From assembly GCF_902500225.1 (NCBI RefSeq), contig NZ_LR722659.1, forward strand, positions 62,001 to 126,000: a DNA stretch of 64,000 nucleotides. Direction: 5' to 3'. The notes under the pieces were generated by a model that saw only the letters and a list, made by a program, of their open reading frames with translations, had not been told where the DNA came from and made no database searches. This stretch comes from Buttiauxella massiliensis (GTDB lineage: Bacteria > Pseudomonadota > Gammaproteobacteria > Enterobacterales > Enterobacteriaceae). Every line of letters begins with the position of its first letter. Within the stretch, counting starts at the first letter, position 1. Made by a program: the position numbers and the translations under genes. Below are positions 12,931-58,316 of this stretch, piece after piece.

Positions 12931-12946
12931 CTTACTTCAAAATTTA

Positions 12947-13070
12947 GACCTGTTAGCATTCGAGTTGCAGCCAGGCGGTAAGGGAACTTATCCCAATGAG
13001 CTTACTTGAGTAAGTGATTTGGGTAAGTGAGCGCAGCCAACGCCCCTGCGGCTTGAAGGATGACAGGTAT
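12947..13070 (-). repeat. ERIC element between yfcE and yfcD
   Basis: The sequence reads as an ERIC (enterobacterial repetitive intergenic consensus) in reverse orientation. It has the CGAGTTGCAG end, the central GAGCTTACTTGAGTAAGTGA dyad and the GAAGGATGACAGGTAT end. It fills most of the yfcE-yfcD gap and is nearly the mirror of the copy at 58190-58316. It ends about 40 bases before the yfcD start. Confidence 0.9.
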
Positions 13071-13113
13071 AACCGATTACGCGCCAAAGAGCGCCCTGAA
13101 TAAGGTTTCCCCA

Positions 13114-25079: not shown

Positions 25080-25707
25080 CACCTGCGGTTTGTTAGTAAC
25101 AAAATATGAAATTCGAAAACAGGTCATTGAGGTCATTTATTGACTCAGTGGCCTATTTTTTAATCACTGCAAGATGTCTTTATTACTAATTTGTAAAAAC
25201 ATGTTTTAAAACAATCTGCTTCATAGCGCCCTAGAAACCTACCTTCTACGTACTTCCTTCGACTCAACACTCGTTTAAATGTTAAAAAATACGCTGCAAT
25301 GTTGTTGGTTTCTGAGATGGATTAACAGAAGCGTGTCTCAGATCAAGAAAATACTCCCTATAGGGGGGATGAATAGTTGAGAATTCCTGCCAAAATAGAA
25401 CAGTAGTTATTTTTTCCCACCTTAACGGACACGATTCACCTTCACTAATACCGAGTTAATCACTCGGCGGAACTAACGTTTAGGGCACTAAATGTTAATG
25501 AAAGTGGAGTCATGTAAATTAATGTGTGGATACTTTTGTTAAAGTTGACAAAAGGTTATAGAAAGGAGTAAAAAACCCCATCAATTTGCAGGAAAAGTTT
25601 TGATTCCGGCAGAAATTGTAAGGTTAATTGTTCCTCCCCATGAATCGATGTGGTGTTCATCTGCCAGCAAGAGCAGAGACTTTGACGCCACTTTTGATGA
25701 GTAAGCA
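25080..25707. promoter_or_regulatory. nuo operon control region
   Basis: The 628 bases between lrhA and nuoA hold no credible gene. In E. coli this region carries the nuo promoters, controlled by ArcA, NarL, FNR and IHF. Here I see NarL-heptamer-like sequences (TACTCCC around 25352 and several TAC-starting heptamers near 25240-25256) and a small hairpin CCGAGT / ACTCGG (25451-25467). Assignments of individual sites are tentative. Confidence 0.5.
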
Positions 25708-26196
25708 ATGAGTATGTCAACATCCACTGAAGTTATCGCTCACCATTGGGCGTTCGCAGTTTTTCTTATTGTTGCCATAGGCCTGTGTTGCGTAATGCTT
25801 CTCGGGGCCTGGTTCCTTGGCGGGAGAGCTAAGGGTCGGCACAAAAACACTCCCTTCGAGTCAGGTATCGACTCAGTTGGTACAGCGCGCTTACGTCTAT
25901 CCGCCAAGTTTTACCTGGTTGCCATGTTCTTCGTTATCTTCGACGTGGAAGCCTTGTATCTCTATGCGTGGTCAGTTTCCATCCGTGAAAGTGGATGGGT
26001 AGGCTTCGTCGAGGCCGCAATTTTCATTTTAGTGCTACTGGCAGGCCTGGTGTATCTGGTGCGTATTGGCGCGCTTGACTGGACACCTGCGCGTTCGCGC
26101 CGTGCCCAAATCAACCCGGAAACCGACAGTATCACTAACCGTCATACGCAAGATGCTCTAAAGAATTCGGATTACAGCAAGGCGGCAAGCGAGTAA
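25708..26196 (+). CDS. nuoA: NADH-quinone oxidoreductase subunit A with an ERIC-encoded C-terminus
   Basis: NuoA is a three-helix membrane subunit of complex I, at the junction of the membrane arm and the quinone site. Hydrophobic segments lie at about 14-35, 66-86 and 96-118; the FESGID loop (about 50-55) is conserved. The protein is 162 residues, against 147 in E. coli. The match ends at [13 protein letters not shown], and the remaining [14 protein letters not shown] is read from an ERIC element that begins near 26158 and also contains the stop codon. The change is at a cytoplasmic tail and probably harmless. Confidence 0.95.
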
Positions 26197-26274
26197 ATCC
26201 CATGAGCTTACTTAGGTAAGTGATTGGGGTTTATGAACGCAGCCAACACCGCTGTAAATTGAATTATAACGAGC
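26158..26274 (-). repeat. ERIC element overlapping the nuoA 3' end and the nuoA-nuoB spacer
   Basis: Aligned with the reverse ERIC consensus, TAAAGAATTCGGATTACAG, AAGGCGGCAAGCGAGT, GAGCTTAC-T-TAGGTAAGTGA and CGCAGCCAAC all match, and the far end reads GAATTATAACG. The first 39 bases are nuoA codons; the rest lengthens the nuoA-nuoB gap to 96 bases. It is more diverged from consensus than the other copies, so probably older. Confidence 0.88.
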
Positions 26275-26292
26275 ATAAAATGAGGCAATAAG

Positions 26293-26967
26293 ATGGACTA
26301 TACGCTCACCCGCATAGACCCCGACGGTGAGAACGACCGTTACCCCCTGCAAAAACAGGAGATCGTGACCGATCCTCTTGACCAAGAAATCAACCGTAGC
26401 GTGTACATGGGCAAGCTCGAACATGCCATGCACGATATGGTGAACTGGGGTCGTAAAAACTCAATTTGGCCTTATAACTTTGGCCTTTCTTGCTGCTACG
26501 TTGAGATGGTGACCTCGTTTACCGCCGTGCACGACGTGGCACGTTTTGGTGCCGAAGTATTGCGTGCTTCTCCGCGTCAGGCTGACTTAATGGTAATTGC
26601 AGGAACCTGCTTTACCAAAATGGCTCCGGTCATTCAGCGTCTGTATGACCAAATGCTCGAGCCAAAATGGGTTATTTCGATGGGTGCTTGCGCCAACTCC
26701 GGCGGCATGTACGACATCTATTCCGTGGTGCAGGGCGTGGATAAATTCCTGCCGGTTGATGTTTACATCCCAGGCTGCCCGCCGCGTCCGGAAGCTTACA
26801 TGCAGGCTCTGATGCTGCTGCAAGAATCTATCGGTAAAGAACGTCGTCCGCTCTCGTGGGTAGTTGGCGATCAAGGTGTGTATCGCGCCAATATGCAATC
26901 CGAGCGCGAGCGTAAACGTGGTGAGCGTATTGCTGTCACCAACTTGCGCACACCAGACGAGATTTAA
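26293..26967 (+). CDS. nuoB: NADH-quinone oxidoreductase subunit B
   Basis: NuoB holds the last iron-sulfur cluster, N2, which passes electrons to quinone. The four ligands are visible: the tandem C67-C68 (GLSCCYVEM), C133 (GACANS) and C162 (GCPPRP). The 224-residue protein is four longer than E. coli because of an insertion in [14 protein letters not shown] (about 39-52). A TGAGG ribosome binding site lies seven bases before the ATG, just past the ERIC element. Confidence 0.97.
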
Positions 26968-27069
26968 TTTGCGCCTGTGGTCGGCGTGAGTTTACTTCGC
27001 ATATCAATAATATTAGCGCGAAGCCGCTGACCAACAGTCACCACAGTACCATTTGCAATGGTGAGAATT

Positions 27070-28869
27070 ATGACCGATTTAACTGCGCATGATGCCAACC
27101 AGCCAGCCTGGCAAACCCGTGACCATCTTGATGATCCGGTTATTGGCGAACTGCGTAACCGTTTTGGGCCGGATGCCTTTACCGTTCAGCCAACCCGCAC
27201 TGGTGTTCCAGTGGCCTGGGTTAAGCGTGAACAATTACTGGAAGTTGTCGATTTCCTGAAAAGACTGCCAAAACCTTACGTCATGCTATTTGATCTGCAT
27301 GGTATGGATGAGCGTCTTCGTACCCACCGCGACGGTTTACCGGCCGCGGATTTTTCCGTTTTCTACCACCTGATTTCTATCGATCGCAACCGCGATGTCA
27401 TGCTCAAGGTGGCGCTGTCCGAAAACGACCTGAACGTACCAACGATCACCAAACTGTTCCCGAACGCAAACTGGTATGAGCGTGAAACCTGGGAAATGTT
27501 CGGCATCACCTTTAATGGTCACCCGCACCTGACGCGCATCATGATGCCGCCAACGTGGGAAGGCCACCCGCTACGTAAAGATTATCCGGCGCGTGCCACC
27601 GAGTTCGATCCGTTTGAATTGACCAAACAGAAAGAAGACCTCGAGATGGAAGCGCTGACCTTCAAGCCTGAAGATTGGGGCATGAAGCGCAGCAGCGAGC
27701 ATGAAGATTTCATGTTCCTGAACCTCGGTCCAAACCACCCATCCGCGCACGGTGCATTCCGTATTGTTCTGCAACTCGACGGTGAAGAAATTGTCGATTG
27801 CGTACCGGACATCGGTTACCACCACCGTGGCGCTGAGAAAATGGGCGAGCGTCAGTCCTGGCACAGCTACATTCCGTATACCGACCGTATCGAGTACCTC
27901 GGCGGCTGCGTGAACGAAATGCCATACGTGCTAGCGGTTGAAAAACTGGCGGGTATCAAGGTTCCTGAACGCGTTGACGTGATTCGCGTCATGCTCTCTG
28001 AACTGTTCCGTATCAACAGCCACTTGCTGTACATCTCCACGTTTATTCAGGACGTGGGTGCCATGACTCCGGTGTTCTTCGCCTTTACCGACCGTCAGAA
28101 AATCTATGACCTCGTCGAAGCGATTACCGGTTTCCGTATGCACCCGGCTTGGTTCCGTATCGGCGGTGTGGCGCACGACCTGCCAAACGGTTGGGAACGT
28201 CTGCTTAAAGAATTCCTCGACTGGATGCCGAAACGTCTGGATTCCTACGAGAAAGCGGCACTGCGCAACACCATCCTGAAAGGTCGTTCTCAGGGTGTTG
28301 CCGCTTACGGTAAGAAAGAAGCGCTGGAGTGGGGCACGACCGGTGCTGGCTTGCGTGCTACCGGTGTTGATTTCGATATCCGTAAAGCTCGCCCTTACTC
28401 TGGTTATGAAAACTTTGACTTCGAAATCCCGGTTGGCGGTGGCATCAGTGACTGCTACACCCGCGTGATGCTGAAAGTTGAAGAGCTTCGCCAGAGCTTG
28501 CGCATTCTTGATCAGTGCCTGAAAAACATGCCTGCTGGCCCGTTCAAAGCTGACCACCCGCTGACAACGCCGCCGCCGAAAGAGCGCACGCTGCAACATA
28601 TCGAAACCCTGATCACTCACTTCCTGCAAGTTTCGTGGGGCCCGGTGATGCCGGCTAACGAATCCTTCCAGATGATTGAAGCGACGAAAGGGATTAACAG
28701 TTACTACCTGACCAGCGACGGCAGCACCATGAGCTACCGTACCCGTATTCGTACTCCCAGCTTTGCGCACTTGCAGCAAATCCCGGCAGCGATTCGTGGC
28801 AGCCTGGTTTCTGACCTGATTGTCTATCTGGGTAGTATCGATTTTGTAATGTCTGATGTGGATCGCTAA
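27070..28869 (+). CDS. nuoC: NADH-quinone oxidoreductase fused subunit C/D
   Basis: The gene encodes the fused NuoC and NuoD subunits typical of enterobacteria, in the connecting arm at the quinone cavity. Residues about 1-185 are the 30-kDa NuoC part (HPLRKDYP near its end); residues about 205-599 are the 49-kDa NuoD part, with [20 protein letters not shown] and EIPVGGG. I chose the ATG at 27070, which follows GGTGAG; a start at 27058 adds MVRI, as annotated in some relatives, but lacks a good ribosome binding site. Confidence 0.96.
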
Positions 28870-28871
28870 CT

Positions 28872-29372
28872 ATGCACGATAAACAACAACCCCAGGCAGA
28901 AGCCTTTGAGCTGAGTCAATTCGAGCGTGATGCGATTGAGCACGAAAAACATCATTACGAAGATGCTCGCGCAGCGTCTATCGAAGCGCTGAAAATCGTA
29001 CAGAAACAGCGTGGCTGGGTGCCAGACGGCGCTATTTACGCCATCTCTGAGGTGCTGGGTATTCCGGCCAGTGACGTCGAAGGCGTTGCCACATTCTATA
29101 GCCAGATTTTCCGCCAGCCGGTTGGCCGCCACGTAATTCGCTACTGCGATAGCGTGGTTTGCCACATTACAGGCTACCAGGGCATTCAATCGGCTATCGA
29201 AGCAAAACTGAACATCAAACCGGGTCAAACCACGTTTGATGGTCGCTTTACCCTGCTGCCAACTTGCTGTCTGGGCAACTGCGACAAAGGGCCGACCATG
29301 ATGATTGATGAGGACACTCACAGCCATCTGACGCCGGAAGCGATCCCTGATTTGCTGGAGCAGTACAAATGA
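28872..29372 (+). CDS. nuoE: NADH-quinone oxidoreductase subunit E
   Basis: NuoE is the 24-kDa thioredoxin-fold subunit of the NADH-oxidising module and binds the [2Fe-2S] cluster N1a. The ligands C92, C97 (YCDSVVC) and C133, C137 (CCLGNC) are present. The 166 residues match E. coli. It starts two bases after nuoC and overlaps nuoF by four. Confidence 0.97.
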
Positions 29373-30709
29373 AAACCATTATTCGTACTGCCGAAACTCA
29401 TCCGCTGACCTGGCGGTTGCGTGATGACAAACAGCCGGTCTGGCTGGATGAATATCGCAGCAAAAACGGCTACGAAGGTGCACGTCTGGCGTTGACTGGC
29501 CTTGCACCAGATGAAGTCGTTAACCGTGTTAAAGACGCTGGCCTGAAAGGGCGCGGCGGTGCGGGCTTCTCCACGGGTTTGAAGTGGAGCCTGATGCCAA
29601 AAGACGAGTCCATGAACATCCGTTACCTGCTGTGTAACGCTGATGAAATGGAACCGGGTACCTATAAAGACCGTTTGCTGATGGAGCAACTGCCGCACCT
29701 TTTGGTGGAAGGCATGTTGATTTCTGCGTTCGCGCTCAAAGCGTATCGCGGCTACATCTTCCTGCGTGGCGAGTACATCGAAGCGGCTGTGCATCTGCGT
29801 CGTGCGATTGCTGAAGCCACCGAAGCGGGGCTGCTTGGCAAAAACATTCTCGGTTCTGGTTTTGATTTTGAACTGATCGTGCACACCGGTGCCGGGCGTT
29901 ATATCTGTGGTGAAGAAACCGCGCTGATTAACTCCCTCGAAGGCCGCCGTGCGAACCCACGTTCAAAACCGCCATTCCCTGCATCAAGCGGTGTCTGGGG
30001 TAAACCGACCTGCGTTAACAACGTCGAAACGCTGTGTAACGTCCCGGCGATTCTGGCCGATGGCGTGGAGTGGTATCAAGGCATTTCTACCAGCAAAGAT
30101 GCCGGTACTAAGCTGATGGGCTTCTCCGGTCGTGTGAAAAACCCTGGCGTTTGGGAATTACCGTTCGGCACCACCGCACGCGAAATTCTCGAAGATTACG
30201 CGGGCGGTATGCGCGATGGCCTGAAATTCAAAGCCTGGCAGCCGGGTGGGGCAGGGACTGACTTCCTGACCGAATCGCACCTCGATTTACCGATGGAATT
30301 TGAAAGCATCGGCAAAGCAGGCAGCCGTTTAGGCACCGCACTGGCGATGGCCGTAGACCACGAGATTGGTATGGTCCCGCTAGTTCGCAACCTGGAAGAG
30401 TTCTTTGCCCGTGAATCTTGCGGCTGGTGTACACCGTGCCGTGATGGTTTGCCGTGGAGCGTGAAAATTCTGCGTGCGCTGGAACGTGGCGAAGGCCAAC
30501 CTGGGGATATCGAGACACTTGAGCAACTGTGTCGTTTCCTCGGTCCAGGTAAAACCTTCTGTGCGCATGCGCCAGGTGCGGTTGAGCCATTGCAGAGTGC
30601 GATTAAGTATTTCCGCGAAGAATTCGAAGCAGGCATTGCCAAACAAGATTTCGGTAACACCCGCGCGATTAGCGGTATTCAGCCGAACTTGTTAAAAGCA
30701 CGCTGGTGA
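29369..30709 (+). CDS. nuoF: NADH-quinone oxidoreductase subunit F
   Basis: NuoF oxidises NADH: it binds NADH and FMN in the [13 protein letters not shown] loop (about 64-76) and holds [4Fe-4S] cluster N3, with ligands in [11 protein letters not shown] (about 351-361) and a later Cys in KTFCAHAPG. The 446-residue length is normal. It overlaps nuoE. Downstream, a 113-base palindromic repeat separates it from nuoG. Confidence 0.97.
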
Positions 30710-30716
30710 TTTGACT

Positions 30717-30829
30717 CCCTCACCCCGGCCCTCTCCCCAAGGAGAGGGGGAAAAACTGACGGTCCCCTCACCAAGGAGAGGGAAAACCTGAAGGTCCCCT
30801 CTCCCTCAGGGAGAGGGTTAGGGTGAGGG
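30717..30829. repeat. Composite CCCTCACC/CCCTCTCC palindromic repeat between nuoF and nuoG
   Basis: The outer arms CCCTCACCCCGGCCCTCTCC (from 30717) and GGGAGAGGGTTAGGGTGAGG (from 30809) are inverted copies with two mismatches. Between them, CTGACGGTCCCCTC and CTGAAGGTCCCCTC are direct repeats, each tied to a further GGAGAGGG unit, so up to three hairpins can form. It is inside the nuo operon and must be transcribed. Confidence 0.85.
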
Positions 30830-30895
30830 TAGTTTCGCACAAGAATTTTTGATTAATGCCTGGGATAACTCAGGCCAACTGGAAGCATGCTGACT

Positions 30896-33619
30896 ATGGC
30901 TACGATTCATGTAGACGGCAAAGAATATGAGGTAAACGGGTCAGACAACCTGCTGCAAGCATGTCTGTCACTCGGCCTCGATATTCCTTATTTTTGCTGG
31001 CACCCGGCGCTAGGCAGCGTCGGTGCTTGCCGCCAGTGCGCGGTGAAGCAATATCAAAACGCAGAAGATCTTCGTGGCCGCCTGGTGATGTCTTGTATGA
31101 CACCGGCCGCTGACGGCACGTTCATCTCTATTGATGACGGTGAAGCAAAAGAATTCCGCGAAAGCGTTGTGGAATGGTTAATGACTAACCACCCGCACGA
31201 CTGCCCGGTGTGTGAAGAAGGTGGCAACTGCCACCTGCAGGATATGACTGTTATGACCGGTCATAGCTTCCGCCGTTACCGCTTCACAAAACGTACCCAC
31301 CGTAATCAGGATCTCGGCCCGTTCATCTCTCACGAAATGAACCGCTGTATCGCCTGTTACCGCTGCGTGCGTTACTACAAAGATTATGCCGATGGCACCG
31401 ATCTGGGCGTCTATGGCGCTCATGACAACGTCTACTTCGGCCGTCCTGAAGACGGTACGCTTGAGAGCGAATTCTCCGGTAACCTGGTAGAGATCTGCCC
31501 GACCGGTGTATTCACTGATAAAACTCACTCCGAGCGTTATAACCGTAAGTGGGACATGCAGTTTGCACCAAGCATTTGCCAGCAGTGCAGCATCGGCTGT
31601 AACACCAGCCCAGGCGAGCGCTACGGCGAATTGCGTCGTATCGAAAACCGCTACAACGGCACCGTGAACCACTACTTCTTGTGTGACCGTGGCCGCTTCG
31701 GTTATGGCTACGTGAACCTGAAGGATCGTCCACGCCAGCCGGTCCAACGCCGTGGCGACGATCTGATCACACTGAACGCTGAACAAGCGATGCAGGGCGC
31801 GGCAGATATTCTGCGCCAGTCGAAGAAAGTGATCGGCATCGGCTCCCCACGCGCCAGCGTTGAAAGCAACTTCGCGCTGCGTGAACTGGTGGGTGCGGAT
31901 AACTTCTACACTGGTATCGCAACCGGTGAGCAAGCACGTCTGCAACTGATGCTCAAAGTGCTGCAAGAAAGCGGCGTTCACACTCCGGCGCTGCGTGAAA
32001 TCGAATCTTACGATGCGGTTCTGGTGCTCGGCGAAGACATTACTCAGACCGGCGCGCGCGTTGCGCTGTCTGTGCGTCAGGCCGTGAAAGGTAAAGCACG
32101 TGAAATGGCAGCAGCGCAGAAAGTGGCTGACTGGCAGATTGCGGCCATCCTGAACATCGGCCAGCACGCTAAACATCCGCTGTTTGTCACTAACATCGAC
32201 AGCACTCGTCTGGACGACATCGCCGCATGGACTTACCGTGCGCCGGTTGAAGATCAGGCGCGTCTGGGCTTCGCGATTGCCAATGCGCTGGACAGCAATT
32301 CCCCAGCCGTTGAATTAGATCGCGACCTGAAAAACAAAGTCGACGTGATCGTTCAAGCCCTGGCGGGTGCGAAAAAACCATTGATCGTTTCCGGGACTAA
32401 CGCCGGTAGCGAAGCGGTGATTCAGGCGGCTGCCAACGTGGCGAAAGCGCTGAAAGGCCGTGGTGCCGATGTCGGTATCACGATGGTGGCTCGCGCCGTT
32501 AACAGCGTTGGCCTCGGCCTGATTGGCGGCGGCTCGCTGGAAGAAGCGTTAAGTGAACTGGAAAGCGGTGCTGCCGATGCGGTAGTGGTGCTGGAAAACG
32601 ATCTGCATCGTCATGCCTCCGCAGCGCGCGTTGACGCGGCACTTTCTAAAGCTCCGCTGGTGATGGTGATTGACCATCAGCGCACCGCGATTATGGACAA
32701 AGCCCATCTGGTGCTGTCCACCGCAAGCTTTGCTGAAAGCGACGGTACGGTTATTAACAACGAAGGCCGCGCACAGCGTTTCTTCCAGGTTTATGACCCG
32801 GCGTATTACGACCATTCCGTTGTGATGCTCGAAAGCTGGCGCTGGTTGCATTCCCTGCACAGCACGGTTCAAAGCCGTGAAGTGGACTGGACGCAGCTTG
32901 ACCATGTTATCGACGCGTGTGTGAAAGCGCTGCCACAACTGGCCGGAATTAAAGATGCGGCACCTGATGCCAGCTTCCGTATTCGTGGTCAGAAACTGTC
33001 GCGTTCTCCAATCCGCTCCAGTGGTCGTACGGCAATGCGTGCCAACATCAGCGTGCACGAACCGCGTCAGCCGCAGGATAAAGACACCATGTTCGCCTTC
33101 TCTATGGAAGGGAACAACAGCCCGTCGGCAAACCGTCAGCAAATTCCATTTGCATGGGCGCCAGGTTGGAACTCACCGCAGGCATGGAACAAATTCCAGG
33201 CTGAAGTGGGTGGCAAACTGCGTCACGGCGACCCTGGCGTGCGTCTGATTGAAGCCTCCGAAACGGGTATTGATTACTTCACCGAGGTGCCGGAAATCTT
33301 CCATGCCGAAGAAGGGAAATGGCGTATTGCGCCTTACTACCATCTGTTTGGCAGCGATGAAATGTCCCAGCGTTCACCAATCTTCCAGAGCCGCATGGCA
33401 GAACCGTATATCAAGCTGAATCCGGCAGACGCTGCAAAACTGGGCGTGAATGCAGGAAGCCTGATTTCGTTTAGTTACGAAGGCCAGACGCTGAGTTTGC
33501 CACTGCAACTTTCTGAAGGTCTGGCAGCAGGGCAGGTCGGTTTACCTATGGGTATGCCTGGCATTGCTCCGGTGCTGGCGGGTGCGCGTCTTGAAAATCT
33601 CCAGGAGGCTGGCCAATGA
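30896..33619 (+). CDS. nuoG: NADH-quinone oxidoreductase subunit G
   Basis: NuoG is the large iron-sulfur subunit of the NADH module. The first 220 residues carry clusters N1b ([15 protein letters not shown]), N4 ([10 protein letters not shown], with the upstream His) and N5 (CIACYRC region); C228-type Cys in [10 protein letters not shown] bind N7, present in enterobacteria. The rest is a molybdopterin-oxidoreductase-like domain without cofactor. Start: the ATG at 30896 has GGAAG ten bases upstream and gives [13 protein letters not shown]; an ATG at 30887 is in frame but too close to that site. It overlaps nuoH by four bases. Confidence 0.97.
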
Positions 33620-34593
33620 GTTGGTTAACACCGGATGTTATCGACATTCTGCTGAGCATTCTCAAAGCGGTCGTGATCCTGTTGGTCGTGGTGACTTGCG
33701 GCGCGTTCATGAGTTTTGGTGAGCGCCGTTTGCTGGGCCTGTTCCAGAACCGTTACGGGCCTAACCGTGTTGGCTGGGGCGGTTCGCTCCAGTTAGTCGC
33801 GGACATGATCAAGATGTTCTTTAAAGAAGACTGGACGCCGCGCTTTGCGGACCGCGTCATCTTTACCCTGGCACCGATGATTGCCTTCACCTCGATGCTG
33901 CTGGCCTTTGCGATTGTGCCAGTCAGTCCGAGCTGGGTGGTTGCTGATCTGAACATTGGTATCTTGTTCTTCCTGATGCTGGCGGGTCTGGCGGTGTACG
34001 CCGTGCTGTTCGCTGGCTGGTCAAGTAACAACAAATACTCACTGTTGGGCGCAATGCGTGCTTCGGCACAAACGCTGAGCTATGAAGTGTTCCTCGGTCT
34101 GTCGCTGATGGGCGTTGTGGCGCAAGCAGGTTCGTTCAACATGGGCGATATCGTCGATAACCAGGCGAACCTGTGGAACGTGATTCCGCAGTTCTTTGGC
34201 TTTGTGACCTTCGCTATCGCAGGCGTTGCGGTTTGTCACCGTCACCCGTTTGACCAACCGGAAGCAGAGCAAGAACTGGCCGATGGTTACCACATCGAAT
34301 ACTCAGGCATGAAATTCGGCCTGTTCTTCGTCGGTGAATACATCGGTATCGTCACCGTTTCAGCGATGATCGTGACCCTGTTCTTTGGTGGCTGGCATGG
34401 CCCGTGGTTACCGCCGTTCATCTGGTTCGCACTGAAAACTGCGTTCTTCATGATGATGTTCATTTTGATTCGTGCTTCATTGCCTCGTCCGCGTTATGAC
34501 CAGGTGATGTCCTTCGGCTGGAAAATTTGCCTGCCGTTGACACTGGTCAATCTGCTGGTGACCGCCGCGGTCATTCTGTATCAGGCACCATAA
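33616..34593 (+). CDS. nuoH: NADH-quinone oxidoreductase subunit H
   Basis: NuoH is the eight-helix membrane subunit that forms the quinone chamber with NuoB and NuoD and links it to the proton channels. The 325 residues match E. coli. Hallmarks are [19 protein letters not shown] (about 35-53), [14 protein letters not shown] and the acidic loop [20 protein letters not shown] (about 214-233). The start codon overlaps the nuoG stop. Confidence 0.97.
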
Positions 34594-34607
34594 GGGGTGA
34601 AAAAACC

Positions 34608-35150
34608 ATGACATTGAAAGAGTTAGCGGTTGGTTTCGGCACCCAGGTACGCAGTATCTGGATGATCGGTCTGCATGCGTTTGCCAAACGCGAAACGCAG
34701 ATGTATCCGGAAGAGCCAGTCTATTTACCGCCGCGCTACCGTGGCCGCATCGTGTTAACGCGCGATCCGGACGGCTCCGAGCGCTGCGTAGCCTGTAACC
34801 TGTGTGCGGTAGCCTGCCCGGTGGCCTGTATCTCTTTGCAAAAAGCAGAAACAAAAGATGGCCGCTGGTATCCAGAATTCTTCCGCATTAACTTCTCGCG
34901 CTGCATCTTCTGTGGCCTGTGCGAAGAAGCGTGCCCAACCACGGCAATTCAGCTGACTCCAGACTTCGAGCTGGGTGAGTTTAAGCGCCAGGATTTGGTG
35001 TACGAAAAAGAGGACCTGTTGATCTCCGGTCCGGGCAAATACCCGGAATATAACTTCTACCGGATGGCAGGTATGGCAATCGACGGCAAAGATAAGGGCG
35101 AAGCGGAAAACGAAGCCAAGCCTATCGACGTCAAAGGCCTATTACCTTAA
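34608..35150 (+). CDS. nuoI: NADH-quinone oxidoreductase subunit I
   Basis: NuoI carries two [4Fe-4S] clusters, N6a and N6b, between NuoG and NuoB. The ligands form two ferredoxin motifs: C60, C63, C66, C70 and C99, C102, C105, C109. The ATG at 34608 follows AAGGGGTG and gives the 180 residues of E. coli; an upstream in-frame ATG lies within nuoH and is not used. Confidence 0.97.
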
Positions 35151-35162
35151 AGGAGCAAGGCA

Positions 35163-35720
35163 ATGGAATTCGCTTTTTATATTTGCGCAATCATCGCGGT
35201 CGGGACCACTCTTCGAGTGATCACCCATACCAATCCGGTGCATGCCTTGCTGTATCTGATCATCTCGCTGCTGGCAATTTCCGGGGTGTTCTTCTCCCTG
35301 GGGGCGTACTTCGCCGCAGCGCTTGAGATTATCGTTTACGCCGGTGCCATCATGGTGCTGTTCGTCTTCGTGGTCATGATGCTTAACCTTGGTGGCTCGG
35401 TTGTTGAACAAGAGCGCCAATGGCTGAAACCACAACTGTGGATTGGCCCTGGCGTTCTGTCTGCTGTCCTGCTGGCGGTGCTGGTTTACGCGATTCTGGG
35501 TCTGAATGACCAGGGAATCGACGGCACTTCCGTCAGTGCTAAACAAGTGGGTATCGCGCTGTTCGGACCGTACGTTCTGGCAGTGGAATTAGCCTCAATG
35601 CTGCTGTTGGCGGGTCTGGTTGTGGCCTTCCACCTGGGCCGTGAAGACCGTCCGGGTGAAGTGCTGAGCAATCGCCAGGCTGACCAGGCTGCGAAAAGAA
35701 AAACGGAGGAGCACGTATGA
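35163..35720 (+). CDS. nuoJ: NADH-quinone oxidoreductase subunit J
   Basis: NuoJ is a five-helix membrane subunit next to NuoA, NuoH and NuoK. It has 185 residues (E. coli 184). The conserved third helix, with its pi-bulge region, reads [20 protein letters not shown] (about 54-73). The C-terminus is charged ([13 protein letters not shown]). An AAGGAG ribosome binding site precedes it; it overlaps nuoK by four bases. Confidence 0.97.
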
Positions 35721-36019
35721 TTCCGCTGCAACATGGACTAATCCTTGCTGCCATTTTGTTCGTCCTCGGGCTGACCGGGCTGGTGATTCGTCGCAACCTG
35801 CTTTTCATGCTGATTAGCCTGGAAGTGATGATCAACGCCGCGGCGCTCGCGTTCGTGGTCGCCGGGAGTTATTGGGGCCAGGCTGACGGCCAGGTGATGT
35901 ATATTCTCGCGATTAGCTTAGCTGCCGCCGAAGCCAGTATTGGCCTCGCGCTGTTATTGCAGCTCCATCGTCGTCGCCAGAGCCTGAATATCGATTCAGT
36001 AAGTGAGATGCGTGGATGA
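35717..36019 (+). CDS. nuoK: NADH-quinone oxidoreductase subunit K
   Basis: NuoK is the MrpC-like three-helix membrane subunit. The 100 residues match E. coli. Glu36 (ISLEVMINA) and Glu72 ([13 protein letters not shown]) are the membrane glutamates needed for proton pumping. It overlaps nuoJ and nuoL by four bases each. Confidence 0.97.
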
Positions 36020-37857
36020 ACCTTCTCTGGTTAACCATTCTTTTGCCGTTTATTGGCTTTTTATTGTTGGCGTTCTCTCGTGGCCGTTGGTCAGAAAACC
36101 TTTCTGCCACGGTTGGCGTGGGCTCGATTGGCCTTACCGCGTTAGTGACGGCGATTGTCGGCGTTGATTTCTTCAACAACGGGCAACAAGCGTTCACTCA
36201 ACCGCTGTGGACGTGGATGTCGGTTGGCGATTTTAATATCGGCTTCAACCTGATCCTCGACGGCTTGTCACTGACCATGCTGTCAGTGGTGACCGGCGTT
36301 GGCTTCTTGATCCACATGTACGCGTCCTGGTATATGCGTGGGGAAGAGGGCTATTCGCGCTTCTTTGCCTACACCAACCTGTTTATCGCCAGCATGGTGG
36401 TTCTGGTGCTCGGCGACAACTTGTTGCTGATGTATCTCGGTTGGGAAGGCGTAGGTCTGTGCTCGTATCTGCTGATTGGTTTCTACTACACCGATCCGAA
36501 GAACGGCGCGGCTGCCATGAAAGCCTTCGTGGTAACCCGCGTGGGCGACGTGTTCCTCGCTTTCGCACTGTTCATTCTTTACAACGAACTGGGCACGCTG
36601 AACTTCCGCGAAATGGTTGAACTGGCTCCGCAGCACTTTGCGGCGGGCAACCAGATGCTGATGTGGGCAACTCTGATGCTGTTGGGCGGTGCGGTCGGTA
36701 AATCTGCGCAGTTGCCTTTGCAGACCTGGCTTGCAGATGCGATGGCAGGCCCAACGCCAGTTTCAGCACTGATCCACGCAGCCACCATGGTTACTGCGGG
36801 TGTCTACCTGATTGCTCGTACTCACGGTCTGTTCCTGTTAACGCCGGAAGTGCTGCATTTAGTCGGCATCGTGGGTGCGGTTACGCTGGTGATGGCAGGC
36901 TTTGCGGCACTGGTGCAAACCGATATCAAACGTGTACTCGCGTACTCGACCATGAGCCAGATTGGCTACATGTTCCTGGCACTCGGCGTGCAAGCGTGGG
37001 ATGCGGCAATCTTCCACCTGATGACACACGCGTTCTTCAAAGCGCTGCTGTTCCTGTCGTCCGGTTCGGTGATTCTTGCCTGCCACCACGAACAAAACAT
37101 CTTCAAAATGGGTGGCCTGCGTAAGTCCATACCGCTGGTGTACATCTGCTTCCTGGTCGGCGGTGCCGCGTTGTCTGCACTGCCACTCATTACTGCGGGC
37201 TTCTTCAGTAAGGATGAGATTCTGGCCGGTGCGATGGCGAATGGTCATGTGAACTTGATGGTTGCAGGTCTGGTTGGTGCGTTTATGACCTCGCTGTATA
37301 CCTTCCGTATGATCTTCATCGTCTTCCACGGTAAAGAGCAGATTCACGCCCATGCGCTGAAAGGCATTACTCACCACTTACCGTTGATTGTGCTGCTGGT
37401 GCTGTCCACCTTCGTGGGCGCAATGATTGTTCCGCCATTAGCGGGCGTTCTGCCAGCCACCACTGAGCTTGCGTACGGTAGCGTGTTGGCACTTGAGATT
37501 ACCTCTGGTGTTGTCGCCATCGCCGGTATCCTGATTGCCGCATGGCTGTGGCTGGGTAAACGTACTCTGGTAACAGCGATTGCCAACAGCGCACCGGGTC
37601 GCTTCTTCGGTACCTGGTGGTTCCATGCCTGGGGCTTCGATTGGCTTTACGACAAAGTCTTCGTTAAGCCATTCCTGGGTATCGCCTGGCTTATCAAGAG
37701 CGATCCGCTGAATTCACTGATGAACATTCCGGCAGTGCTTTCCCGCTTCGCAGGTCGCGGCCTGTTGGTGAGCGAGAACGGTTATCTGCGCTGGTATGTG
37801 GCATCAATGAGCATCGGTGCGGTGGTGGTTCTGGGCTTGCTGCTGGTCTTGCGCTAA
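36016..37857 (+). CDS. nuoL: NADH-quinone oxidoreductase subunit L
   Basis: NuoL is the distal antiporter-like proton-pumping subunit with the long lateral helix. The 613 residues match E. coli. Key residues are Glu144 in [16 protein letters not shown] and the first pump lysine in [19 protein letters not shown] (about 225-243). The C-terminal part forms the lateral helix and anchor. A small GGAGGG palindrome follows the stop. Confidence 0.97.
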
Positions 37858-37864
37858 TTCAACG

Positions 37865-37890
37865 TTCCCTCCTCTGAAAAGGGGAGGGAA
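37865..37890. repeat. CCCTCC-type palindrome between nuoL and nuoM
   Basis: TTCCCTCC (37865-37872) and GGAGGGAA (37883-37890) form a short hairpin in the 78-base nuoL-nuoM gap. It resembles the units at 4406, 30717 and 51780 but is shorter. Confidence 0.6.
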
Positions 37891-37935
37891 AGTGAGTGAT
37901 GTTTTGGTTTATTTTGACTTAGGGACACAAATGCC

Positions 37936-39465
37936 ATGCTATTACCCTGGCTGATACTTATCCCCTTTATTGGCGGCTTCTTCTGCTGGCAGACTGAACG
38001 CTTCGGCGTAAAAGTGCCACGTTGGATTGCGCTGGTAACGATGGGACTGACACTGGCTCTCTCGCTGCAACTGTGGTTAGCCGGTGGCTATTCACTGACG
38101 CAATCCGCCGGTTTGCCGCAGTGGCAGTCTGAATTTATCCTGCCGTGGATCCCACGCTTTGGGATAACCATCCACCTTGCGCTGGACGGCTTATCTTTAC
38201 TGATGGTAGTGCTCACCGGTCTGCTCGGTGTGCTGGCGGTACTCTGTTCCTGGAATGAAATCGAAAAATATCAGGGCTTCTTCCACCTCAACCTGATGTG
38301 GATCCTCGGTGGCGTTATCGGCGTGTTCCTTGCCATCGACATGTTCCTGTTCTTCTTCTTCTGGGAAATGATGTTGGTGCCGATGTACTTCCTGATCGCA
38401 CTGTGGGGCCATAAAGCCTCCGACGGGAAGACACGTATCACCGCTGCCACCAAGTTCTTCATCTACACCCAGGCAAGCGGCCTGGTGATGTTGATTGCGA
38501 TTCTTGGCCTGGTGTTCGTGCATTACAACTCAACCGGCGTCTGGACGTTTAACTACGAGCAACTGCTGCACACTGAAATGTCGAGCAGCGTTCAATGGCT
38601 GTTGATGCTGGGCTTCTTCATTGCGTTTGCGGTGAAAATGCCAGTGGTTCCATTGCATGGTTGGTTGCCAGATGCGCACTCCCAGGCGCCAACGGCAGGT
38701 TCTGTTGACCTCGCAGGTATCTTGCTGAAAACCGCAGCCTACGGTCTGTTGCGTTTTGCACTGCCGCTGTTCCCGGAAGCGTCCGCTGAATTTGCACCAA
38801 TCGCCATGTGGCTGGGTGTCATCGGTATCTTCTACGGTGCGTGGATGGCCTTCGCACAAACCGATATCAAACGTCTGATTGCTTACACTTCCGTTTCCCA
38901 CATGGGCTTCGTGTTGATTGCCATTTATACCGGCAGCCAGTTGGCTTACCAGGGCGCGGTGATTCAGATGATTGCTCACGGCCTTTCTGCTGCCGGTATG
39001 TTCATCATCTGTGGTCAGATTTACGAGCGTTTGCACACTCGTGATATGCGCCTGATGGGCGGTCTGTGGAATAAAATCAAATGGCTGCCAGGTCTGTCGT
39101 TATTCTTTGCAGTGGCAACGCTGGGTATGCCAGGCACCGGTAACTTCGTTGGCGAATTCATGATTCTGTTCGGCAGCTACCATGTCGTGCCAATGATTAC
39201 CATTATCTCGACCTTCGGTCTGGTCTTTGCCTCAGTTTATTCTCTGGCGATGATTCATCGTGCTTACTTCGGGAAAGCGAAAAGCGAAATCAGTGATAAA
39301 CAACTGGCAGGCATGTCGCTGCGTGAGTTCTTTATCATCCTGTTGCTGGTGGTGTTGTTAGTCCTGTTGGGCTTCTACCCGCAGCCAATTCTGGATACTT
39401 CGCATGCCGCGATGAGCAATATTCAGCAGTGGTTTACCAGTTCAATTCCAACTACAAGGCCGTAA
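37936..39465 (+). CDS. nuoM: NADH-quinone oxidoreductase subunit M
   Basis: NuoM is the central antiporter-like proton-pumping subunit. The 509 residues match E. coli. The conserved Glu is in FFFWEMMLVPMYFLI (about 140-154), and the pump lysine and channel region in VKMPVVPLHGWLPDAHSQAPT (about 233-253). A TAGGGA site lies upstream of the ATG, and the gene stands 78 bases after nuoL. Confidence 0.97.
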   Translation: MLLPWLILIPFIGGFFCWQTERFGVKVPRWIALVTMGLTLALSLQLWLAGGYSLTQSAGLPQWQSEFILPWIPRFGITIHLALDGLSLLMVVLTGLLGVLAVLCSWNEIEKYQGFFHLNLMWILGGVIGVFLAIDMFLFFFFWEMMLVPMYFLIALWGHKASDGKTRITAATKFFIYTQASGLVMLIAILGLVFVHYNSTGVWTFNYEQLLHTEMSSSVQWLLMLGFFIAFAVKMPVVPLHGWLPDAHSQAPTAGSVDLAGILLKTAAYGLLRFALPLFPEASAEFAPIAMWLGVIGIFYGAWMAFAQTDIKRLIAYTSVSHMGFVLIAIYTGSQLAYQGAVIQMIAHGLSAAGMFIICGQIYERLHTRDMRLMGGLWNKIKWLPGLSLFFAVATLGMPGTGNFVGEFMILFGSYHVVPMITIISTFGLVFASVYSLAMIHRAYFGKAKSEISDKQLAGMSLREFFIILLLVVLLVLLGFYPQPILDTSHAAMSNIQQWFTSSIPTTRP

Positions 39466-47803: not shown

Positions 47804-47926
47804 TATTCCCGTCATACTTCAAGTTGCATCTTTGTTGGCTTTCCGCGCTCACCCCAGTCACTTACTTATGTAAGCTCCTGTGGATTCGCTGCGTTGCCGC
47901 CTCGATGCCACTCGAATTATTTAGGA
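47804..47926 (+). repeat. ERIC element in the gltA leader
   Basis: This copy is close to the ERIC consensus: TATTCCCGTCATACTTCAAG, CGCTCACCCCAGTCACTTAC, TTATGTAAGCTCCTG and CACTCGAATTATTTAGG. It ends 53 bases upstream of the gltA start codon (minus strand), between gltA and where its promoters should be. Confidence 0.95.
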
Positions 47927-48281
47927 AATACATTCAAACCAACCGTGACGCATACCAGTTTTTTATTTGGCTCTCAGCTCTGTTTTGATATCAGTGTAAC
48001 GCAGGGTACAGAGCAATGGGCGCTTGCAGGTAACACGAGCCACGCAGGCGAAAAAACAGCAAATCAGGGTGTTAGCAGTCCATATCATTCAAATCTGTGT
48101 ACCACTAATAACGGTCCTGATTGATTGGGTCAATACCGATACACTGTTACATAACTTATTCTCAGGTGAAAGGCTGACCCTATAACTTTTGCGAATTATA
48201 CGGCTTTTCTGGCATCATTTGTAACAAGAATGTTTAACTTTTGTCAAATCAGATGATTAAAATTTAAAATAATGTTGTTAT

Positions 48282-58189: not shown

Positions 58190-58316
58190 TATACCCGTCA
58201 TCCTTCAAGCTGCAGGGGTGTTGGCTGCACTCACTTACCCGAATCACTTACTCAAGTAAGCTCATCGGGATAAGCTCCCTGGCCGCCTACCTGCAACTCG
58301 AATGCTAACGGGTATC
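58190..58316 (+). repeat. ERIC element in the sucD 3' UTR
   Basis: A full ERIC with ends TATACCCGTCATCC and CGGGTATCA, CACTTACTCAAGTAAGCTCA at the centre and CTGCAACTCGAATGCTAAC near the end. It begins 11 bases after the sucD stop and ends before the operon terminator, so it is transcribed with sucD. The copy at 12947-13070 is its near-mirror, implying recent shared ancestry. Confidence 0.95.

Follow-up and report, generated by a model that had tools for sequence, protein, structure and literature searches.

ERIC DNA supplies the predicted C-terminal tail and stop codon of nuoA in a subset of Buttiauxella genomes

The predicted C-terminal tail of NuoA in Buttiauxella massiliensis, together with the stop codon of its gene, is ERIC DNA, and sequence comparison makes it very probable that, in a Buttiauxella ancestor, an ERIC entered nuoA at the TA of its stop codon, supplying a tolerated tail and a stop of its own. 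In the window, the 64,000-nucleotide stretch of contig NZ_LR722659.1 analysed here, the nuoA open reading frame (25708–26196, + strand; 162 aa) consists of an ancestral portion, residues 1–148, ending at NRHTQ, and of residues 149–162, encoded by a full-length ERIC of 126 bp including the target-site positions (26152–26277, +; delimited by covariance model and nhmmer). The 14 ERIC codons that form the new C-terminus occupy 26152–26193 (+), of which the first two bases, in codon 149 (26152–26153, +), correspond to the left target-site position; they now read GA and were putatively the TA with which the TAA stop of nuoA began. The TAA stop within the element follows at 26194–26196 (+), and the non-coding remainder, which carries the second arm of the predicted hairpin, lies in the nuoA–nuoB gap (26197–26275, +), ending at the right target-site copy TA (26276–26277, +), placed from the sequence and from the target rule derived at other loci. 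The open reading frame of nuoB (26293–26967, +) is preceded by its GAGG ribosome-binding site (26282–26285, +), at −11 as in alleles that lack the element. An earlier note made from the sequence alone had proposed that an ERIC provides the last 14 or so codons and the stop of nuoA; the number is exactly 14, the stop lies inside the element, and the element extends slightly beyond the interval 26158–26274 then given.

The assignment to ERIC was examined with a covariance model and a profile HMM, both built from 29 other ERIC copies of the B. massiliensis genome with the nuoA copy left out. The interval 26152–26277 matches the covariance model over its full length (model positions 1–127 of 127; 120.4 bits, E 7.3e-31), bearing out the alignment-based identification in the earlier note, and scores 102.9 bits (E 7.6e-30) with the profile HMM in nhmmer; the covariance model is a custom one, and Rfam at gathering thresholds gave no ERIC match in the window. 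The element is predicted to fold as a single long hairpin (−49.3 kcal/mol, z −6.8 relative to 200 shuffles), the strong hairpin that had been proposed for the nuoA–nuoB gap, in which the UGCUC and GAGCA ends pair as terminal inverted repeats. ERIC is multicopy in all 12 Buttiauxella genomes compared, with at least 150 matches in that of B. massiliensis and from 18 to at least 150 per genome overall. The Pfam NuoA domain (PF00507) spans residues 28–125, and E. coli NuoA (3rko_A, 147 aa) aligns to residues 1–146, beyond which the Buttiauxella protein is predicted to run 16 residues further.

Filled and empty alleles of nuoA coexist within the genus. The element is present in five of the 12 Buttiauxella genomes (B. 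massiliensis, G006, G007, G010 and G011), all with a 162-aa reading frame and a gap to nuoB of 96 or 97 bases (96 in B. massiliensis); the seven empty alleles encode 147–148 aa, end at NRHTQ or NRQQ and leave a 15-base gap, confirming both the ancestral endpoint and the widening of the gap that had been read from the single sequence. Among named species, B. brennerae (ATCC 51605) and B. gaviniae (ATCC 51604) carry the same tail, and B. agrestis and B. warmboldiae are without it. A tail common to ERIC-free relatives, which would have spoken against an ERIC origin, was sought and rejected, the tail occurring only with the ERIC among these 12 genomes. The same picture is obtained from the best 80 of 552 confirmed loci in GTDB, where 78 of 80 have NuoA of 146–148 aa and a 15-base interval from the nuoA stop to the nuoB ATG, the remaining two being filled species. 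The 15-base gap is not a family-wide constant: in a wider-family set of 30 loci, with L027 left out for its position near a contig end, it is found in 18 of 24 readable ERIC-free loci, with 17–31 bases in the other six, and NuoA is 142–154 aa long in the other readable loci.

The junctions indicate where the element entered. In most empty alleles the junction is CAG-TAA, with the nuoB ribosome-binding site after it (the stop being CAG-TAA in 6/7 and CAG-TGA in 1/7, G003), and filled alleles read CAA-GA-TGCTC...GAG(C/T)A-TA. The left junction CAA-GA-TGCTC has the same length as CAG-TA plus the element, which puts the target at positions 1 and 2 of the stop codon, with TA as the right copy and GA as the left; the left TA is absent from all five filled alleles. 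The TA rule itself comes from two clean filled/empty pairs and from D-lyxose isomerase (below). At the two loci for which a clean empty site is available, the duplicated TA immediately flanks TACCC...GGGTA, the empty partner of the window copy at 58190–58316 reading ...AACTAA-TA-ATAA... in G001, G002 and G005, and that of a copy in G008 reading ...TAACGC-TA-TAGCC... in G010 and G011 (...TAGCG). The TA that adjoins CCC was considered as the nuoA duplication and rejected, as it implies a pre-insertion nuoA with no stop and three bases too long; its length is also wrong at two other loci, although at locus L277 it fits as well or better. The right flank of the nuoA element is one base short, so that the insertion model needs a one-base deletion. 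Because the left copy now reads GA, we infer, rather than observe, that the exact target was the TA of the nuoA stop codon, and confidence in this placement is slightly lowered because G003, an empty genome that is sister to G006 plus G007 in the nuo tree, has a TGA stop and because L277 fits the other placement. By eye, and uncounted, the outermost two bases of ERIC copies often change together, as inverted complements of each other rather than as independent TA copies (CTTACCC...GGGTAAG, ATTACCC...GGGTAAT, AATCCTC...GAGGATT), as though one end of the hairpin had been templated on the other.

The proposed sequence of events follows from these positions. Insertion of ERIC, a small TA-duplicating mobile repeat, into the TA of the nuoA TAA stop would have converted the stop into a sense codon (TAT), with ribosomes continuing into the element; since a hit on the TA of TAA or TAG places the duplicated TA at codon positions 1–2, the frame in which the ERIC is read would be fixed. 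The orientation found at nuoA would then give about YTLNNSSCSKAASE followed by the ERIC stop, 14 residues that now read as in B. massiliensis or as DALNPSASSKAISE. While nuoB would keep its own ribosome-binding site, any transfer of ribosomes over the former 15-base gap should cease, the stop now lying 96 bases from nuoB with a stable hairpin in between; the filled allele would since have been kept or moved by homologous recombination. Such a mechanism would explain the same frame and similar length of ERIC tails of this kind, as the stop codon supplies the TA. When 139 ERICs of the B. massiliensis genome are read in the stop-TA frame, the commonest tail lengths are 14 (32 copies), 22 (31), 9 (30) and 3 residues (18); this census covers 139 of 150 listed copies, omitting the 11 weakest, and 119 gene ends (57 plus 62 in the two orientations), with genes called by codon score and not from annotation.

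Parallel cases occur in the same genome. D-lyxose isomerase (PF07385) is, from its junctions, a repeat of the nuoA event: three of 11 orthologues are filled (B. massiliensis, G006 and G007; L316:1413-2138, L318, L319) with a 14-residue ERIC tail, FTQNSSSCRKAASE, and in the eight empty orthologues a TAA starts exactly at the junction (the twelfth genome gave no match). In flgM (PF04316, anti-sigma-28 factor) the ERIC lies five codons ahead of the stop and is read in the nuoA frame, with three of 12 orthologues filled (B. massiliensis, G007 and G009) and nine empty, which have TAT (7) or TCT (2) at the junction. The last five flgM codons are replaced by ERIC codons in B. massiliensis and G007, and the G009 element sits at the same point (L299:925-1242, L327, L328, L337). 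Across the 119 gene ends, six stop at least 10 bases inside an ERIC, four in the stop-TA frame and two in another, which limits the fixed frame to stop-TA hits. The earlier description of such a coding role as unusual holds only in part: ERIC-coded C-termini have already been published (PMC2759123), and this genome itself has these six ends among 119.

Orientation beside stop codons is biased in the B. massiliensis genome. In one orientation the stop of the upstream gene starts at −5 to +2 of the ERIC in 40 of 62 genes (−4 to −1 in 34/62), compared with 3 of 57 (−4 to −1 in 2/57) in the other, rarer orientation, to which the nuoA copy belongs. Many ERICs of this genome show TAA followed directly by TACCC, with the stop kept. 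A broader proposal, to our minds distinctly doubtful, would make ERIC a stop-codon-seeking element whose insertion at gene ends is either harmless or adds a brief stereotyped tail together with a stop, giving enterobacteria a recurrent way of acquiring new C-termini. If true, it would rest on the TA target, the orientation preference and the two frames opened from a hit TAA or TAG: in the harmless orientation the ERIC would come to lie 0–3 bases after the stop, NuoA and lyxose isomerase would each exemplify the other outcome, and FlgM would represent a hit five codons before the stop.

The present distribution of the nuoA element bears the marks of recombination. The filled genomes are not monophyletic in a tree built from about 12.5 kb from nuoB onward, which requires recombination or loss, and B. 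massiliensis groups there with the empty G004, not with the filled G007 (B. gaviniae). The B. massiliensis flanks are mostly closest to G007 (about 94–98% in most 3-kb windows, lower in some), and within this region about 25360–38000 forms a G004-like tract (97–99% in 3-kb windows). At 25360–26131 the sequence agrees with G004 at 50 of 51 informative sites, including a G004-type run of 10 sites (25932–26131) to the left of the ERIC patch, and at 26367–27378 with G004 at 86 of 86, beyond which some sites are G007-like. Between them, at 26145–26281 (+), all 131 columns that separate G004 from G007 match G007; most of these columns lie in the ERIC, which is identical to that of G007 over all 126 bases. 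The nuoA ERIC thus stands out within a G004-like tract as an island of G007 type that measures 137 bases or slightly more. The mosaic suggests that a resident ERIC either survived the import of G004-type DNA or was put back, and the patchy spread of the filled allele fits recombination.

Whether the element arrived more than once can be weighed on the same evidence. Two independent insertions at the same stop, one in the brennerae/gaviniae/B. massiliensis group and one in the G010/G011 group, would account for the divergence of the allele types (33 of 126 compared bases, together with a gap of one base) and for groups that are not sisters in the nuo tree, and the flgM element likewise occupies one site in B. 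massiliensis, G007 and G009, non-sisters in that tree. Against this, eleven bases that span the left junction, CAAGATGCTCT (where empty alleles have CAG-TA), are the same in both allele types and match neither the empty site nor the ERIC consensus, and in both types the right flank is equally one base short. Double insertion is therefore judged unlikely, and a single original insertion is favoured because these junction letters are common to both types. That nuoA simply lost its stop by chance and read into unrelated intergenic DNA resembling an ERIC is scarcely conceivable, given the full-length leave-one-out match (E 7e-31) and the clean empty sites, on which chance resemblance was rejected.

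Insertion at the stop does not of itself say whether tail or hairpin is used. Selective retention of the 14 residues for complex I assembly or NuoA stability, the coding exaptation proposed in the earlier note, could draw on the intact frame and stop in both allele types, on the DAL, SKA and SE common to their tails and on the survival of the ERIC patch within the recombined tract; both frames stayed intact by chance in 17% of trials of a crude neutral simulation, so that intactness is weak evidence for constraint. Between G007 and G010, however, 14 of 45 tail bases and 5 of 14 tail residues differ (K/N, N/P, D/A, Y/S, A/I), a rate like that of the non-coding ERIC (19/81 bases plus one gap) and of nuoB fourfold sites (33/109), with 24 of 444 bases differing in the nuoA body. 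No purifying selection on the ERIC codons is seen in this comparison, and the tail seems to evolve about like unconstrained DNA, two allele types affording low power. Seven of the 12 Buttiauxella genomes do without the tail, and NuoA length already varies in the wider family. Exaptation is thus not supported by the sequences and is thought very improbable; the extension, if translated, appears to be tolerated rather than used on a variable C-terminus, and would be close to neutral in the cell. Retention of the ERIC as an mRNA element, its hairpin altering the stability of the upstream transcript or uncoupling nuoB translation, is judged unlikely. In Yersinia, ERICs beside stop codons reportedly prefer one orientation, to which the mRNA effect is said to belong, and the nuoA copy has the other. 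Nor is the nuoB start region predicted to be sequestered: mean unpaired probability at its ribosome-binding site is 0.63–0.68 in B. massiliensis, G006 and G007, 0.38 in G010 and G011, and 0.24–0.47 in the seven empty alleles, so that the site is predicted to be more open than in the empty alleles in three of five filled alleles and within their range in two, and concealment of the nuoB start by the ERIC was rejected. A shift in the NuoA:NuoB ratio, as the earlier note suggested, would be a hypothetical consequence of the insertion. The gap also varies among ERIC-free loci of the family. In favour of a role in the mRNA stand the very stable hairpin, the near-constant 15-base gap in close loci (78 of the best 80) and the orientation-dependent effect of Yersinia ERICs on upstream mRNA (De Gregorio 2005, as cited in PMC2229807 and PMC10969869).

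ERIC-coded C-termini are of a kind already known. Fusions of open reading frames with ERIC (RU-1) sequences were described by Delihas 2007 (PMC2759123), including ERIC-coded C-termini and loss of the normal stop in the amidase ECA3499; like nuoA, ECA3499 and the threonine dehydrogenase ECA0168 have an ERIC at the 3′ end, with the old stop gone and the C-terminus and stop within the element. The features of such fusions are found at nuoA, whose frame continues into and ends within the ERIC and whose ERIC-free relatives are shorter, predicting a fusion protein. The RU-1 peptides of Table 1a of that paper are read from the other strand of ERIC (YTRHISSC... plus a frame-shifted variant), and the 14-residue nuoA frame is absent there; comparison with empty sites and a frame rule from the stop TA belong to the present analysis, neither being found in the part of Delihas 2007 drawn on here (PMC2759123). 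The Yersinia ERICs, as described in the sources cited above, resemble the nuoA copy in element, in a TA duplication that is putative at nuoA, and in a hairpin between co-transcribed genes; they differ in having a demonstrated regulatory effect, the nuoA copy being known from its sequence and lying in an orientation rare beside stops of its own genome. In Coxiella, the QMITE element, of a different MITE family, supplies C-terminal residues or the stop of the functional genes pntAA, enhC and ubiB (PMC5896051), tails similar to that of nuoA, and this was the only paper on point among the matches listed, by title and abstract opening, in a literature search on C-terminal extension by ERICs or MITEs at stop codons. 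The Photorhabdus ERIC relative MITEPlu5 (PMC6267812) is 123 bp long with a TA duplication, CCC near its ends and a strong hairpin; its stated length counts the terminal TA, that adjoining CCC, as the duplication, unlike the position two bases further out given here by the two clean empty sites. The present analysis adds the stop-codon mechanism with its empty sites, the lyxose isomerase repeat, the flgM case and the recombination island.

At nuoA a mobile repeat has taken the place of the stop of a core respiratory gene, and empty sites, two allele types and a parallel case elsewhere in the genome make the comparison a clean one. For annotators, NuoA length differs among Buttiauxella species owing to a mobile element, and the filled and empty alleles offer a natural pair for testing nuoA–nuoB coupling and the effects of the ERIC hairpin. 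Three further full-length ERICs lie in the window, at 12945–13071 (+, 118.2 bits), 47804–47930 (−, 116.6 bits) and 58190–58316 (−, 135.5 bits), and the sole Rfam match there at gathering threshold is the nuoG RNA motif (RF01748) at 30843–30885, with 48.4 bits.
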